A stretch of DNA of 64,000 nt from Halarcobacter bivalviorum (lineage in GTDB: Bacteria; Campylobacterota; Campylobacteria; Campylobacterales; Arcobacteraceae). Below the pieces are notes generated by a model. That model worked only from the letters and a program-made list of their open reading frames with translations, did not search any database and was not told the DNA's origin. The stretch is from the NCBI RefSeq assembly GCF_003346815.1, contig NZ_CP031217.1:682001-746000 (forward strand), read 5' to 3'. Shown piece after piece: positions 1-8,200 of this stretch. The position numbers were made by a program, and so were the translations under genes. Positions within the stretch are counted from its first letter, which is position 1. The number at the start of each line of letters is the position of its first letter.

Positions 1-1
1 T

Positions 2-898
2 CCAGAAACCTTAATGGATAGTGAAGTTTTAAGAGAGCTAAGAAAGCTAACTGATAGAAGAATTAATAATGATAAAAAACTTTTTAAAGAAAAAACAAGT
101 GATGTTAAGAAATTAATAGGTTTTCTTGGAGAATATATAAATAAGTTTTTAGTAAATCATACTTCAACTTATTCTGATATTTCTAAATTGAAAGAGGAGA
201 TTTATTCTCTTGAACTCTCCGAGTCCTCTTTAAAAGATTTAGAACAAATTAAAAGTGATCTAATCTCATCAATTGATAAATTTGAAACTTCTTTAGTAAA
301 AACAGAAAAAAATATAATTAAAAATCAATTAGAATGTAATAATCTTTATGAGCAAATTGAAGAGTTACAACATAATCTTGATAAAGCAGAAGAAGAAAAA
401 TCAATTGATTTTTTAACCAATGTTTTAACAAGAAGAGCCTATGCTGTTGAGATTGAGCGGTTAGAAAATGAATTTAAAATTTATGATTCAAACTATGCTT
501 TAGTTTTTTATGATATTGATCACTTTAAAGAGATAAATGATATGCATGGACATGATTGTGGAGATTCTGTTCTTTCTACTTTTGCACAAATTCTTAAAAA
601 CCTTACTCGTACAGGGGATATAATTGCTAGATATGGGGGAGAAGAGTTTATTTCTATAGTAAATTATAAAAATAAAATGGAAATAAAAAACTATTTAAGA
701 AGAGTAAAAAATATTATTTCAAATAATAGATTTGTATATAATGATATTAAAATCAATGTTAAATTCTCAGCAGGTGTAGCATATAGAAAAAATTATAACT
801 CTTATGAAGAGACAATTAAAAAAGCTGATGAATTATTATATACTGCAAAATCTAAGGGTAGAAATAAAATTATAATAGATAATGGGGAAGAAGTTTAA
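2..898 (+). CDS. Diguanylate cyclase (GGDEF protein), 5' end outside the window
   Basis: The C-terminal half is a GGDEF domain that makes cyclic di-GMP from two GTP. The sequence shows the start motif D-x-L-T-x-x-x-x-R-R, the metal-binding YDIDHFKEIND region and an active-site GGEEF (in RYGGEEF). The N-terminal part before it is a long charged helix, probably a coiled coil. The reading frame is open to the left edge through four codons before the first ATG at 14, so the gene may start upstream and carry another sensory domain. No inhibitory RxxD site is obvious directly before GGEEF. Activity is inferred from the intact motif. Confidence 0.85.
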   Translation, partial: PETLMDSEVLRELRKLTDRRINNDKKLFKEKTSDVKKLIGFLGEYINKFLVNHTSTYSDISKLKEEIYSLELSESSLKDLEQIKSDLISSIDKFETSLVKTEKNIIKNQLECNNLYEQIEELQHNLDKAEEEKSIDFLTNVLTRRAYAVEIERLENEFKIYDSNYALVFYDIDHFKEINDMHGHDCGDSVLSTFAQILKNLTRTGDIIARYGGEEFISIVNYKNKMEIKNYLRRVKNIISNNRFVYNDIKINVKFSAGVAYRKNYNSYEETIKKADELLYTAKSKGRNKIIIDNGEEV

Positions 899-1052: not shown

Positions 1053-1718
1053 ATGACAAAAGTAATTAAAAATAGAATTTTATCTCAGTTACATTTTTTA
1101 AAATCAATCGGATATGAATATCATGAAAGTGTAAAAGCTTTTAATAAAGAGATTGTAGAAGACTCTTTACCTAATGATATTAATAGTTTAGAACAAATTG
1201 TAAACAATTGTTACTTATGTGAATTATCAAAATCAAGAAAAAATGTTTTATTCTCTTATGGAAATACAGTAGCAGATATTATGTTTTTAATTGATGAGCC
1301 AACTACAAGTGAAGATGAATTGAACTCTTTTTATGTTGGAAAAGCAGGAGAACAGTTAGCAAAAATGATTGAAAATGTATTGCCTTTAAAAAAAGAGGAT
1401 GTATATATAACAAGTTTAGTTAAGTGTAAAAGCTATAATGGATTTGAATCAACACACTTTAATAGTTGTAGTTCTTATTTATATAAGCAGATTGATTTAG
1501 TAAAACCTAAATTAATAGTTACACTAGGAGATAAAGCTTATCAGTTTCTTTGTAAAGATAAAACACCTTTTTATCAGATACGAGGTAAGTTAATGAATTT
1601 TAAAAATTACGATGTATTACCAACATATAGCCCTGGTTTTCTTTTAAGAAATCCATCTTTTAAAAAAGAGGCTTTTTTAGATATGTTGAAGATTAAATCG
1701 ATTTTGGAGTCAAATTGA
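1053..1718 (+). CDS. Uracil-DNA glycosylase family 4-like Fe-S protein (degenerate active site)
   Basis: It has the fold signature of family 4 (Fe-S) uracil-DNA glycosylases. Four cysteines suit a 4Fe-4S cluster: C53 and C56 (CYLC) plus C125 and C139. YVGKAGEQLAKMI matches the family's FVGxAGxxL segment. The usual motif 1 (GExPGxxE) reads IDEPTTSEDE, and the usual HPxxLLR motif reads SPGFLLR, so the catalytic-region His is Ser. Uracil excision is therefore doubtful and a modified DNA-binding or repair role is possible. ATG 1053 was preferred to an in-frame TTG at 1047, which falls inside the -10 box. It overlaps the next gene by four bases. Confidence 0.75.
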   Translation: MTKVIKNRILSQLHFLKSIGYEYHESVKAFNKEIVEDSLPNDINSLEQIVNNCYLCELSKSRKNVLFSYGNTVADIMFLIDEPTTSEDELNSFYVGKAGEQLAKMIENVLPLKKEDVYITSLVKCKSYNGFESTHFNSCSSYLYKQIDLVKPKLIVTLGDKAYQFLCKDKTPFYQIRGKLMNFKNYDVLPTYSPGFLLRNPSFKKEAFLDMLKIKSILESN

Positions 1719-2908
1719 AAAATATAATTTTAATAGCATTACTTGGTTTTTTAATTGTAGGTTGTGCCCCAAAGGGTAAAGTAACTACGTCTCAAAAACA
1801 AGATGTTTATCAACCAACTTATGAAAAGCCTTCAGAAATAGAAGAAGATGCAGTAGTTCAAATACCTGTAGTTCCCGATGAAAAAGGAGCAAATAAAATT
1901 GCAGTATTATACCCTTCTAAAGTAGTAGGAAAATATGCAAAATCAACGGTAAATGCCATAATTGCATATTTAATTTATAATAATAAAGAGTTTGAAGTAA
2001 TATCTTTTGATAGTTATGATGAAGAGAGCTTAAATATCTTAAGTCAAATTAAAAAAATTGAAGAGCAAGACTTTAAAAAAGTGATTGCACTATTTACACA
2101 AAAAGGTTATGAAACTCTAAATAGAACTCATGCTTTACATTTTGCAAAAGTATATTTTCCTTTAATAAATAAAAATGAGGTATCTCTTCCAAAAGATAAC
2201 TTTGTATTTGGTGGAATTTCATATGAAAAGCAAGTTAAATTATTAAAAACTTTATCAAGTGAAAACAGTACAATGTTTTATGTTCCTTCATATTTAGGAA
2301 ATAAATTAAAAGCACTATATGATACTGAATTTGCTGATACAAATCCTATAACAAAAGTGATACAAATTAATAACAATAAGTATCAATATATCATGAATGA
2401 TGAGAGAATTGTATATAATACAGTTTTATTAAATACACCTATTATTAAAACTTCAATTATTATGTCTCAATTAACAGCTTATGAGGTAGACCCAATTAGA
2501 ATTTTATCTACACAATTAAACTATAATCCTTTATTAGTGAAATTAACTCAGCCAAGAGATAGAGCAAATTTCTTTGTAGTAAGTTCTATAGGAAAAGTTG
2601 ATAGTTTTATTGAAGAGTATGCTGATTTATTAGGTGCTGATATTACTTATAATTGGGTAGATTATTCATCTTTAGTTGGTACAGAATACTTAATGAATTT
2701 AGATACAGATGAAAACAAAAAAATTATAGAAACAGAGATTGAAGATAATCAAGTTCAATATGAACCTAAGTTATTTAGAGGTACTTCTTATGGCTTTAAG
2801 CAAGTATTAGATGTGGATGCTGCATTAGAAGATACATATAACACAATGCTTAAAAGAGAAGAAGAAAAAAAGGCAAAAAAAGAGCAAGAAGCTCTAAAAA
2901 ATCAATAA
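1715..2908 (+). CDS. Outer-membrane or periplasmic lipoprotein, PBP-activator-like
   Basis: It starts with a lipoprotein signal peptide whose lipobox is IVGCA, with the lipidated Cys near residue 17. The mature part begins with a low-complexity Pro/Glu linker, then a segment starting NKIAVLYPS that looks like a type I periplasmic-binding fold, as in LppC/LpoA-type penicillin-binding-protein activators. The C-terminus is a Lys/Glu-rich helix. TTG start 1715 overlaps the upstream stop codon (TTGA) and has GGAG seven bases before it. A role in cell-wall synthesis is an inference from fold resemblance only; the protein could also bind a small ligand. Confidence 0.65.
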   Translation: MKNIILIALLGFLIVGCAPKGKVTTSQKQDVYQPTYEKPSEIEEDAVVQIPVVPDEKGANKIAVLYPSKVVGKYAKSTVNAIIAYLIYNNKEFEVISFDSYDEESLNILSQIKKIEEQDFKKVIALFTQKGYETLNRTHALHFAKVYFPLINKNEVSLPKDNFVFGGISYEKQVKLLKTLSSENSTMFYVPSYLGNKLKALYDTEFADTNPITKVIQINNNKYQYIMNDERIVYNTVLLNTPIIKTSIIMSQLTAYEVDPIRILSTQLNYNPLLVKLTQPRDRANFFVVSSIGKVDSFIEEYADLLGADITYNWVDYSSLVGTEYLMNLDTDENKKIIETEIEDNQVQYEPKLFRGTSYGFKQVLDVDAALEDTYNTMLKREEEKKAKKEQEALKNQ

Positions 2909-2967: not shown

Positions 2968-4719
2968 TTGAGAACGCACTATTGTACAGAAGTAACTGAA
3001 AAAAACATCGGTGAAAAAGTTACTGTTGCTGGTTGGGTTAACAGTAGAAGAGATCACGGTGGAATTATATTTATTGACTTAAGAGATAAGGGTGGATTAG
3101 TTCAACTAGTAGCTGACCCTGCACATAACGAAGCTGCATTAAAAACAGCAGAAGATGTAAGAGATGAGTTTGTTTTAATTGCAACTGGTACTGTAAGAGC
3201 AAGAGGGGAAGGACTAGAAAACCCAAATTTAGTTACTGGTAAAATTGAAATCATTTTAGATGAACTAGTAATTGAAAACAGATCTAAGCCTATGCCATTT
3301 GATTTAAATGATGAAAAAGTAAATGATGAAATCAAATTAAGAAATAGATTTTTAGAGTTAAGATCTAAAAAAATGTTTGATATTTTCAAATTAAGATCTA
3401 AAGCAACTATCCAAGTAAGAAATACTTTAGATGAATTAGGTTTCTTAGATGTTGAAACTCCAATCTTAACTAAATCTACTCCAGAAGGTGCTAGAGATTA
3501 TCTTGTTCCAAGTAGAGTTCATCCAGGTGAATTTTATGCCCTTCCTCAATCACCACAACTATTCAAACAACTATTAATGGTATCTGGATTTGATAAATAT
3601 TTCCAAATTGCTAAATGTTTTAGAGATGAAGATTTAAGAGCAGATAGACAACCAGAATTTACTCAAATCGATGTTGAAATGTCTTTTTGTAATCAAGAAG
3701 ATGTAATCAAAGTTGCAGAAAGATTAATCTATGATGTATTTACTGCTTGTGGTAAAACAGTTCCTCAAACTTTCCCTAGAATTAAATATTTTGATGCAAT
3801 GGAAAAATATGGTTCTGATAAACCAGATATGAGATTTGATATGGCAATGGTAGATGTTATTGATATTTTTGCTAACTCTACAAATGAAATTTTTGCTGAT
3901 ATTGCTAAAGATACAAAAAACAACAGAATCAAAGCTTTAAGATGTCCAAATGGAGATAATATTTTCTCAAAAAGACAAATGAAAGGTTTTGAAGATTATG
4001 TAAGAAAATTTGGAGCTAAAGGTCTTGGTTACTTCCAAATGAAAGAAGATGGATTAAAAGGTCCTTTAACAAAATTCTTCTCAGAAGCTGATTTAGAAGC
4101 AATTGTAAAATCAACTGAATTAGAAGTAGGTGATGTTGTATTCTTTGGAGCTGGAGATAAGAAAACTGTATGGGATTATATGGGAAGATTTAGACTTTAT
4201 CTTGCAGAGCAAATGGAAATTATTCCTGCTGATACTTATGAGTTCATTTGGGTTGTTGACTTCCCAATGTTTGAAGTTGAAGAAGGAAAAATGAAAGCTC
4301 TTCACCACCCATTTACAATGCCAAAATCTTTAGAAGATACAACAGATCTAGAAGCTATTGAATCAATTGCTTATGATATTGTGTTAAATGGTACAGAACT
4401 AGGTGGAGGAAGTATCAGAATTCATAAAGAAGAGATTCAAGCTAAAGTATTTGAACTTATGGGAATTTCAAAAGAGGAACAAAGAGAAAAATTTGGATTC
4501 TTACTTGATGCTTTACAATATGGTGCTCCATCTCATGGTGGATTTGCTATGGGTCTTGATAGAATGGTTATGCTACTTGCAGGAACTGATTCTATTAGAG
4601 ATGTTATTGCATTCCCTAAAACTCAAAAAGCTCAGTGTTTAATGACTCAAGCTCCATCTGAAGTTGATACTGAACAATTAAAAGAATTAAGTCTTAGAAT
4701 CAGAAAGACTGAGGTTTAA
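2968..4719 (+). CDS. aspS: Aspartyl-tRNA synthetase
   Basis: This class II synthetase charges tRNA-Asp, and in organisms lacking AsnRS also tRNA-Asn. The N-terminal OB-fold anticodon domain ([19 protein letters not shown]) is followed by the catalytic domain with motif 2 ([18 protein letters not shown]), the bacterial insertion domain and motif 3 ([13 protein letters not shown]). The length of 583 residues is usual for bacterial AspRS. The start is TTG 2968, with GGAG at 2958-2961. Whether it is discriminating cannot be decided here. The ZnuA-like gene follows after 16 bases and is probably cotranscribed. Confidence 0.98.
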
Positions 4720-4735
4720 TTTTAAAGGCAACAAT

Positions 4736-5542
4736 ATGATTAAATATATATTCGTATTGTTGTCACTATTCTCTTTTTTAAATGCAAAAATAAGCATTGT
4801 CGTTACTTTTCCTGTACATAAAAAATTTATTGAAAAAATTTCAAGAGATGATTTTTTTATTAAAGTTATAGAAACAGGAAATACTAAATTCTCTGACCAA
4901 AGTAATCTTTTCAAAAATGAAATCTATTATAGTGATGTTTTTTTAACTTTAGGGTTAGAAGAGGATAAAAAATATATTGAACTTTTTAAAAAGAAAAATA
5001 GATATATGAAAGTTATTGATATTTCAGAGGGAATAAAAAAAGATATAGTAAATGGAAAAGTAAATCATTATATCTGGACAGACCCTTTATTAGTACGAGA
5101 ACTAATGACAAATCTTTTTAATACTCTTAGTTCTTTACAATCTTATAGAAAAGAGTTTTACGAAGAAAAATATAAAGAGTATTTATTAGAGTTAGATCAA
5201 TTCTTTTTAGATTTAAAAAAGAAATTTGATAGAAATGAGTTCTATAATATTTATGTGTATGAGCCTTATTGGCACTATATTGCAAAGAGATATAGACTTA
5301 ATTTATATTATAAAGAAAATAGGTTTACAGAATTAAATGAAGTCTCAGACCTTATTGAATATTCTGATAAACACCATATTGAAAAACTACTTATAAAAGA
5401 GGGTAGTTCTTATGAATTAGCCCAATCTTTAGCTTCAAATATTAACGCAGATATTGTTGAACACGATATCACTAAATATAATTGGAAAGTGAATCTTCAA
5501 GCCCTTGCTAGAAAATTAGCAAGATACAAAAAAAATCTATAA
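4736..5542 (+). CDS. ZnuA-like metal-binding protein (orphan, reduced ligand set)
   Basis: This 268-residue protein has an N-terminal signal peptide ending at about LNA and the layout of cluster A-I Zn/Mn substrate-binding proteins. NHYIWTDP matches the family's PHxWLDP ligand motif, and YEPYWHYIAKRYRL matches HxxFxYxxxRYGL. The first ligand region usually holds a His (HxYEP) and here reads NTKFSDQSN, so the site is altered. No His-rich acidic loop is seen. No metal permease or ATPase gene lies nearby, which is odd for this family. It may scavenge or buffer a metal, or work with a transporter encoded elsewhere. It follows aspS by 16 bases with AAAGG as ribosome-binding site. Confidence 0.75.
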   Translation: MIKYIFVLLSLFSFLNAKISIVVTFPVHKKFIEKISRDDFFIKVIETGNTKFSDQSNLFKNEIYYSDVFLTLGLEEDKKYIELFKKKNRYMKVIDISEGIKKDIVNGKVNHYIWTDPLLVRELMTNLFNTLSSLQSYRKEFYEEKYKEYLLELDQFFLDLKKKFDRNEFYNIYVYEPYWHYIAKRYRLNLYYKENRFTELNEVSDLIEYSDKHHIEKLLIKEGSSYELAQSLASNINADIVEHDITKYNWKVNLQALARKLARYKKNL

Positions 5543-5626: not shown

Positions 5627-8200
5627 ATGTCAAAGAGTTTAGTGGACTACAAAGGTATAAAAGTAAATAAAGAACTTTATCCAATAATCAAACATATTGA
5701 GGATGTGGATAAATATAGAGAAGAGTTAGGAAGGTTAAGCTCTTCTTGGGATATTTTTGCCCTTTTAGGACAATTAGGGGATATAAATATTGATATTGGA
5801 AAAACAAAAGAGAACTTCTTAAATCTTACTACTACTTTATTAAATCACTTAAGTGAAGAGACTGTAAAAAAAGTAACCACTGAAATGAAATTTAAAGCAC
5901 AAGTTGCAATTGATATTGTGATTAGAAATCTTTTTGAAAGAACGGCAGATATTGGCTTTTTAGCAACTGATGATGATATTAGAGAGTTTTTACAAAACTT
6001 TGTGTCAAGATATAATAGTGATAGTGTTGAGTTAAAAGAGCAGATACAAAAAAGATTTTTAGAGTATGTACAAAAGTACTCTGTATATTATGACATTGTT
6101 CTTGCTGATACAAAAGGAAAAGTTGTAGCAAGGCTTGATAATAATATAAAAGTTGATTGGTTAGATAAAGAGTTTACTCAAAAAATAATAACTTCAAATG
6201 AGGAGTATGTAGAGAGTTTTCAATACCATGATTTTATTCCCCATAAAAAGAAATCTTTAGTTTACTCTTATAAGGTAACTCAAACAAATGATTCTGATTC
6301 TGAAGTACTTGGTGTTCTTTGTTTGTGTTTTAGATTTAGAGATGAGATGGAAGGTATTTTTAATAATTTAGTTGAAAAAAGAAATAAAGAGGCTTTAACT
6401 ATTTTAGATGAAGAGGGTTATGTAATTGCTTCTAGTGATAAAGACTATATTCCTTTAGAATCAAAGCTTGAACTTGTACTAGATGAAGATTTTAAAATTG
6501 TCTCTTTTTGTGGAAGAGATTATATTGCAAAAACTTGTTTAACAAATGGTTATCAAGGTTTTAACGGTCTTAAATGGTATGGACATATTATGATTCCTTT
6601 AGAGTATGCTTTTTTAAGTAATCAAAATAATGAGTTTAAAATTGATGAAGCCATTATAAACTCAATGATGGAAAATGAACAACACTTCTCAAAAGAGTTA
6701 AAAGAGGTTTTTAATAAGAGTAAAACTATTCAAGAAAATCTTGGACGAGTAATTTGGAATGGGAATGTTTCTCAAAGTAAACTAAACTCTTCAAATAGAG
6801 AGTTCTCCAAATCACTTTTAAGTGAGATAGGAGTTACAGGAATAAAAGCAAACTCTTCTTTAAGTAATTTAAATCAAACAATTATTAGTTCAATTCTAAA
6901 AGATAGTGAGTTTCTATCTTCTCTTGCAATAGATATTATGGATAGAAATCTTTATGAAAGAGCAAATGATTGTAGATGGTGGGCTTTAACTTCATATTTT
7001 AGAAAAGCCTTTGATGAGAAAGAGTCATTACTTTATAAAGAAGAGGAAATTTCTGCAATTTTAAAATATATAAATGATTTATATACAGTTTATACAAATA
7101 TTTTAGTTTTTGATACAGAAGGTAAAATAATTGCTGTTTCAAATGAAAATGAAAAGTTTTTAGTGGGTAAATATCTCTCTCAAGAGTGGGTAGGGCAAAC
7201 TTTAAAACTAGAAGATACTTCTAAATATTGTGTATCAAAATTTGAAAAAACAAATCTTTATTCAAATGAGGCTACTTATGTTTATTGTGCGGCAATTAGG
7301 TCTTTTGAAAATGCAGATAAAATTAATGGTGGAATAGCTGTTGTTTTTGATTCTACACCTCAATTTGAAGCTATGTTACAAGATAGTTTACCAAAAGGAA
7401 ATGAGAGCGTTTTTGCTCTTTTTACAACAAGGGATAAAAAGGTAATCTCTTCTACAAATAAAGAGATTGAAATCAACTCTATAATTGAACTTGATGATAA
7501 GTTTTTCCAGTTAAAAAATGCAGAACAAAAAAGTGAAGTAGTTGAAATAAATAATAAATATTATGCTTTAGGTGTACGATGTTCGCAAGGATATAGAGAG
7601 TATAAAAGTGCAACAGATGATTATGTAAATGATGTTTTCTGTTTAGTCTTTAATTATATAGGAGAAAAAGCTTTTGATGAAAGAAAATATGAAAATAAAT
7701 CAAAGTTTTTAAATAGTGGTTCTAAAAAAATATTTACAGATTCTTGTGTTGAATTAGCAACTTTTCACTTAGGAAATAAATTTCTTGCAGTTGAAGCAAA
7801 AAATGTTATAGAATCAATCTCTATTGATAAGTTAGAGGTTTCAATAGATATGGATAAAACTAATCCTTTTAAAGGAATGGTTTTGTATAAAGATAATCTA
7901 ATTTCTGTACTTGATATAAGAAGCTTTATTAAAGAAGATATAAAAGATGAAGAGTTAAATACTATTATTCTTTTTGAGTATGATAAGGATAATAAAGAGC
8001 ATTGTATTGGTATTTTAGTCTCTTCTTTACAGAGTGTTTCTGTTGTGGAAAAAGACTCAATTCAACAAATCCAAAGTCATTTTTTAGGAGCAGGAACTCT
8101 AATTGAGAGTTTAGCTGATATTAGTGATTATGAAGAATCACAAGTTGCAATGATACTTGATATTAAAAAGATAGATGATAATTTAACAAAGAAACTCTAA
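5627..8200 (+). CDS. Soluble tandem Cache-like sensor with C-terminal CheW domain
   Basis: This 857-residue protein has no signal peptide and no membrane segment. Two related sensor modules can be seen. Each has a helix with the shared pattern D-I-x-x-R-N-L-x-E-R-x-x-D (about residues 95 and 435), followed by alternating strands like those of a double Cache domain (DIVLADTKGKVVAR; NILVFDTEGKIIAV). The last ~150 residues (from about 705) resemble CheW: VELATFHLGNKFLAVEAKNVIE and NLISVLDIRSF. CheW couples chemoreceptors to the kinase CheA. The inferred role is a cytosolic ligand sensor that joins a chemoreceptor array. It has its own start with AGGAG and no chemotaxis gene beside it. Confidence 0.75.
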   Translation: MSKSLVDYKGIKVNKELYPIIKHIEDVDKYREELGRLSSSWDIFALLGQLGDINIDIGKTKENFLNLTTTLLNHLSEETVKKVTTEMKFKAQVAIDIVIRNLFERTADIGFLATDDDIREFLQNFVSRYNSDSVELKEQIQKRFLEYVQKYSVYYDIVLADTKGKVVARLDNNIKVDWLDKEFTQKIITSNEEYVESFQYHDFIPHKKKSLVYSYKVTQTNDSDSEVLGVLCLCFRFRDEMEGIFNNLVEKRNKEALTILDEEGYVIASSDKDYIPLESKLELVLDEDFKIVSFCGRDYIAKTCLTNGYQGFNGLKWYGHIMIPLEYAFLSNQNNEFKIDEAIINSMMENEQHFSKELKEVFNKSKTIQENLGRVIWNGNVSQSKLNSSNREFSKSLLSEIGVTGIKANSSLSNLNQTIISSILKDSEFLSSLAIDIMDRNLYERANDCRWWALTSYFRKAFDEKESLLYKEEEISAILKYINDLYTVYTNILVFDTEGKIIAVSNENEKFLVGKYLSQEWVGQTLKLEDTSKYCVSKFEKTNLYSNEATYVYCAAIRSFENADKINGGIAVVFDSTPQFEAMLQDSLPKGNESVFALFTTRDKKVISSTNKEIEINSIIELDDKFFQLKNAEQKSEVVEINNKYYALGVRCSQGYREYKSATDDYVNDVFCLVFNYIGEKAFDERKYENKSKFLNSGSKKIFTDSCVELATFHLGNKFLAVEAKNVIESISIDKLEVSIDMDKTNPFKGMVLYKDNLISVLDIRSFIKEDIKDEELNTIILFEYDKDNKEHCIGILVSSLQSVSVVEKDSIQQIQSHFLGAGTLIESLADISDYEESQVAMILDIKKIDDNLTKKL

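Follow-up and report, generated by a model that had tools for sequence, protein, structure and literature searches.

The window analysed here, a 64,000-nucleotide stretch of the Halarcobacter bivalviorum genome (a single 2.68-Mb contig), contains an open reading frame whose product, P0001, joins two tandem dCache modules to a C-terminal CheW domain (Table 1) and is referred to below as the Cache-CheW protein. An AGGAG lies a few bases 5' of its ATG. The gene follows one for a ZnuA-like metal-binding protein, a pairing retained in ~16 Arcobacteraceae loci, and a YgiQ-type radical-SAM gene lies 76 bp downstream on the same strand. Elsewhere in the window (1715-2908), a 397-aa open reading frame has no Pfam or NCBIfam match. 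The host genome has four CheW-domain genes, which we read as CheW, CheA, CheV and the Cache-CheW protein; no NCBIfam model matches the last of these. Compared with L044, the closest relative among the matches listed, the open reading frame shows a dN/dS of ~0.08, indicating strong purifying selection.

Table 1 Features of the Cache-CheW gene and of related open reading frames. Positions without a locus handle are those of the window.
Feature	Position	Residues	Strand	Basis or remark
Double-dCache-CheW ORF (P0001)	5627..8200	857 aa	+	ATG start
N-terminal helical hairpin	5627..5794	1-56	+	AF2 model; conserved W-D...L-L-G-Q
dCache module 1	5795..6616	57-330	+	Pfam dCache_1, AF2, DctB/PctA structural alignment
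Motif D-I-V-I-R-N-L-F-E-R-T-A-D	5912..5950	96-108	+	Homolog alignment
Inter-module helical linker	6647..6796	341-390	+	AF2 and conservation; invariant W-N-G (377-379)
dCache module 2	6797..7666	391-680	+	DctB alignment; homology to module 1
Motif D-I-M-D-R-N-L-Y-E-R-A-N-D	6932..6970	436-448	+	Then C-R-W-W
Flexible linker	7667..7738	681-704	+	Lowest pLDDT of AF2 model
CheW domain	7739..8197	705-857	+	Pfam CheW, profile search, structural alignment
ZnuA-like metal-binding protein gene	4736-5542		Same as Cache-CheW gene	84 bp upstream
Soluble mini-MCPs	L133:3779-4813; L135:3908-4933; L134 near 4001-4783			
CheW-less double-dCache ORFs	L121:5982-7982; L122:5398-7425; L124:5878-7929; L125:5353-7266; L126:6346-8295			

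Pfam recognised dCache_1 in two stretches of P0001 (E=2.3e-18; 67.1 bits against a gathering cut-off of 45, below which some relatives fall) and CheW at E=8.6e-9, above its gathering cut-off; Response_reg, CheR and MCPsignal gave no Pfam match, and Diacid_rec reached 16.3 bits, below its cut-off of 23.6. An AlphaFold2 (AF2) model of the full-length protein, built with 83 homologs, had a pLDDT of 81.6, and module 1 modelled alone (residues 55-345) reached 87.4. Module 1 is predicted to comprise a long 57-residue helix (57-113) and two PAS-like subdomains, and aligned structurally with DctB (Z 18.4) and PctA (Z 17.2); module 2 aligned with DctB at Z 17.6 (2.9 Å over 215 residues) and its distal subdomain with CitA at Z 15.8. 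Both modules thus have the long N-terminal helix and paired PAS-like subdomains of the dCache fold. The C-terminal domain aligned with E. coli CheW (6s1k) at Z 16.1, and a profile search of the PDB found CheW chains at E=4.5e-12; searching PDB sequences with the Cache-CheW protein as a single sequence returned chance matches only. The two dCache modules are homologous and arose by duplication: hhalign aligned them with 99.1% probability over 251 columns at 22% identity, and the motif D-I-x-x-R-N-L-[FY]-E-R-x-x-D is nearly invariant in both, its core R-N-L-x-E-R being invariant among the 83 aligned homologs. An earlier note, made from the DNA alone, had proposed two related Cache-like modules sharing this helix and followed by a CheW domain, and the searches and models bear out each of these points.

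Cache domains are considered the principal extracellular sensors in prokaryotes, and they usually lie outside the cytoplasm between two membrane helices, a setting in which those of the Cache-CheW protein are not found. Its highest 19-residue hydropathy is 1.06, and the N-terminal 60 residues stay at or below 1.03 across 110 homologs; the corresponding values for two genuine membrane MCPs from related loci are 2.8-3.1. By hydropathy, neither P0001 nor the 110 homologs show an export signal or a membrane helix, which rules out export or a hidden anchor on this measure and indicates, as far as sequence can tell, a soluble protein. The earlier note had likewise read the protein as free of signal peptide and membrane helix, and had named beforehand what would speak against it, namely a missing Cache fold or a hidden signal anchor; both modules are dCache domains and no anchor is visible. 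Extracytoplasmic location is typical of the Cache superfamily and not strictly required (PMC4822843).

Relatives of ~860 aa occur at no fewer than 582 loci in GTDB representative genomes, spanning Campylobacterota, Beta- and Gammaproteobacteria, Desulfobacterota and Deferribacterota. The best 80 of these at least 582 align over nearly their full length at 37-87% identity; most of them belong to Campylobacterota or to Beta- and Gammaproteobacteria, and some to Desulfobacterota-type and Deferribacterota genomes; the best named relatives among the matches listed are Arcobacteraceae. The module belongs to a large family and is no one-off; the earlier note's term "undescribed" stands to the extent that we found no description of a Cache-CheW protein or a nif-linked CheW in the open-access literature, which misses most subscription journals. 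Column identity is ~0.6-0.65 in the sensor half and 0.4 in the CheW half, the least conserved region, and invariant aromatic and charged residues are numerous in both distal subdomains. At one locus (L020, G282:C5:258-2881) the gene is split into two adjacent open reading frames, one with the Cache part and the other with the tail of the second Cache and the CheW part, which may reflect a frameshift or a genuinely split gene. Near the gene in six loci (L071:1916-2479, L062, L083, L092, L095 and L096) we also observed a family of ~187-aa proteins with no Pfam match at E 0.001.

The gene co-occurs with the chemotaxis kinase: of 59 carrier genomes, 58 have CheA (H-kinase_dim), among them all 31 from Campylobacterota, and the exception is G411. 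The absence of an adjoining chemotaxis gene, remarked on in the earlier note, holds in the window but not in every relative. In L068 the gene's stop codon and the start of an MCP gene overlap, in L089 the same MCP gene comes next, and in L130 an MCP-type receptor with a 4HB domain lies downstream. The CheW surface departs in part from the canonical one. The Gly57 equivalent (G750) is kept in 83 of 83 homologs and a later glycine (G795) in 80 of 83, whereas x-Y-K-D-like residues stand in place of the N-L-R-G signature. The Glu38-Arg62 salt-bridge pair (E. coli numbering) is near-absolute in CheW of class F7; here, with residue correspondence assigned by hand, the Glu38 equivalent E729 is E in 57/83 and the Arg62 equivalent K755 is K or R in 46/83. 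This pair is required for signalling and dispensable for assembly (PMC3828127), so docking of the Cache-CheW protein into CheA arrays is plausible.

The same type of Cache also occurs with other outputs. Soluble mini-MCPs of ~340-380 residues, encoded on large plasmids of Caballeronia, Methylobacterium and Niveispirillum, consist of an MCP signalling tip followed by one R-N-L-Y-E-R-type Cache, some of them being 341-344 aa long. Soluble double-dCache proteins of 630-690 aa end right after the second Cache, with neither CheW nor any other output; the one in L122 is encoded after an MCP-like open reading frame that is itself split by a transposase-like one. Together, the mini-MCPs and the CheW-less forms suggest that the R-N-L-[FY]-E-R Cache type is a cytosolic sensor with exchangeable chemotaxis outputs.

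Beyond the window, from which this could not have been seen, the Cache-CheW family is strongly associated with nitrogen fixation, both statistically and physically; this link is new. Among 298 Campylobacterota genomes, nifH (above its curated cut-off) was present in 27/31 carriers, defined as strong matches to P0001, and in 17/267 non-carriers (Fisher p ~1e-22), rising to 24/24 for carriers outside the close Arcobacteraceae clade. Such p-values overstate the strength of the association, since genomes are not independent; fairer counts are those by genus (p ~2e-6) and within one genus with a good mix, where four of four carriers and 2/13 others have nifH. In 200 Burkholderiales genomes, some of them previously reached through the Cache-CheW protein, the figures were 15/26 carriers against 13/174 others (p ~1e-8), and nifH was present in 33 of 42 non-Campylobacterota genomes, all of which had been selected by the Cache-CheW protein. 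On the phylum, order, genus-level and within-genus counts, we rejected chance co-occurrence with nif.

Physical proximity is seen as well, with nifH on the same contig within 38 kb of the gene in 9/33 genomes. In a Methylobacter (L131), the gene ends a same-strand run nifH-nifD-nifK-ferredoxin-nifX; in Sulfuricurvum (L114), the order is fdx-nifX-fdx-x-gene, and the gene faces a NifS-family gene. The 4HB receptor locus (L130, G516) has nifB and a ferredoxin gene upstream on the same strand, L068 carries nifE after the MCP gene, and in L094 draG is directly upstream, with a similar open reading frame in L113. Of 35 non-Campylobacterota homologs, 15 have Sigma-54-like sites in the 150 bp upstream, where mononucleotide shuffles lead one to expect 0.8; within 400 bp such sites occur in 20/36 homologs against 12/90 control open reading frames; NifA-type upstream sites (TGT-N10-ACA) showed no clear enrichment (6/36 against 8/90).

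While many relatives lie in nif clusters, the gene in the window does not, and its genome has no nifH; G030, G241 and G297 also lack it, as do nine of 12 other close Arcobacteraceae relatives examined. The pair L005/L044 is nevertheless under strong constraint, with nifH missing from both. Nitrogen fixation is thus not required for keeping the gene, and a nitrogenase-only role of the window protein, whose gene is constrained in a genome devoid of nifH, was ruled out. From its retention under strong constraint in nifH-lacking Arcobacteraceae it also follows that the signal is not peculiar to nitrogenase; the nif link possibly stems from shared ecology or from a wider nitrogen/carbon or redox signal.

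Our favoured reading, which we hold with somewhat better than even confidence, is that the Cache-CheW protein is soluble, senses a metabolite in the cytosol and docks into CheA arrays, in the manner of CheWS or CheV with another sensor. The earlier note's proposal of this kind finds partial support: it is backed by the folds, the lack of an anchor, the near-universal CheA, the adjoining MCP genes and the fusions to MCP tips, and less by the CheW surface. Against a metabolite sensor acting through CheW are the partial retention of the Glu38-Arg62 hallmark and the CheW-less relatives, in which the sensor can act without a CheW output. These same relatives, together with the low conservation of the CheW part, its altered N-L-R-G signature and the many copies inside nif clusters that lack Che genes, would fit a CheW domain borrowed for protein-protein contact with another partner, such as a regulator of nitrogenase or another Che-like system, with no docking into arrays. 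We consider this unlikely, as almost all carriers encode CheA, MCP genes are next to or near the gene in three loci, both CheW glycines are retained, the CheW part is strongly constrained (dN 0.047, dS 1.17 and dN/dS ~0.04 against L044), and the same Cache type is joined to MCP tips elsewhere. A non-binding role is more improbable still: the dCache modules would have lost ligand binding and act as a dimeric scaffold, setting the spacing or rigidity of the array, an idea with which the long helices and invariant linker motifs are compatible, and the classic dCache amino-acid motif was not recognised by eye. Known dCache domains, however, bind ligand in their PAS-like distal subdomains, and it is in these subdomains of both modules that conservation is concentrated.

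What is sensed is a separate matter, as likeness of fold leaves the ligand of the dCache modules unnamed. The nif link may reflect no more than the shared ecology of motile dwellers in micro-oxic gradients, or hitch-hiking by linkage, with the protein responding to a non-nitrogen signal such as an organic acid, an amino acid or redox state. We regard this as quite possible while not expecting it to be correct: the window genome and close Arcobacteraceae keep the gene under purifying selection without nifH, and 11 of the 26 Burkholderiales carriers lack nifH, but in several distinct lineages the gene lies on the same strand within nif operons or as their last member, draG adjoins it, and the correlation holds within a single genus. 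The more specific proposal that the R-N-L-[FY]-E-R Caches form a distinct cytosolic branch that senses an intracellular nitrogen/carbon-status metabolite and plugs into chemoreceptor arrays via the CheW domain seems to us doubtful in its full form; if true, diazotrophs of several phyla would couple nitrogen-fixation status to swimming. Given the DctB/CitA-like fold, a candidate for the metabolite may be a dicarboxylate such as 2-oxoglutarate.

In the sensor-adaptor model that we prefer, the protein would be a soluble dimer whose tandem dCache modules bind a small intracellular molecule, and its CheW domain would join the rings of receptors and CheA much as CheW or CheV does. Binding to the Cache modules would then alter CheA activity and thereby swimming. 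We infer that what is signalled is a nitrogen, carbon or redox status of relevance to diazotrophs, an input that the nifH-lacking lineage of the window may have retained for a wider purpose. The Cache-CheW protein thus probably enables cells to direct their movement according to internal metabolic state, and its nif context offers a concrete, testable idea of the sensed signal that bears on how metabolism and movement are linked in motile diazotrophs.

In function, the closest precedent is CheWS of Treponema, in which a CheW domain is fused to a SAM-binding CheR-like domain and which is found in chemotaxis arrays (Muok et al. 2023, PMC10653840). Both proteins fuse CheW to a cytosolic ligand-binding sensor, that of CheWS binding S-adenosylmethionine; however, the CheR-like sensor is C-terminal to CheW and occurs in spirochetes, whereas two dCache modules precede CheW here, in several other phyla. 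The same study (PMC10653840) counted 30 CheW architectures without description, and the Cache-CheW protein may be among them. CheV, too, is a soluble adaptor in which a regulatory domain accompanies CheW, but that domain is a receiver, of which none was found in the Cache-CheW protein, and the host genome encodes a separate CheV-like protein (L003). PctA, Tlp3 and DctB share the dCache fold with its long N-terminal helix; theirs is periplasmic, between two membrane helices, and not in tandem in a protein lacking membrane helices. The mini-MCPs, annotated only as methyl-accepting chemotaxis proteins, resemble the Cache-CheW protein in their solubility, their R-N-L-Y-E-R-x-x-D-x-R-W-W Cache and their chemotaxis output, and differ in having a single Cache unit, with an MCP signalling hairpin at the N terminus in place of CheW. 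Upadhyay et al. (2016, PMC4822843) described the Cache families as mainly extracellular, Diacid_rec and YkuI_C being the exceptions; these two intracellular members of the superfamily have other outputs, and Pfam did not assign the Cache-CheW protein to them above the cut-off. A large soluble Cache-CheW family would add to CheWS a second means for cytosolic chemistry to enter the array with no chemoreceptor involved.
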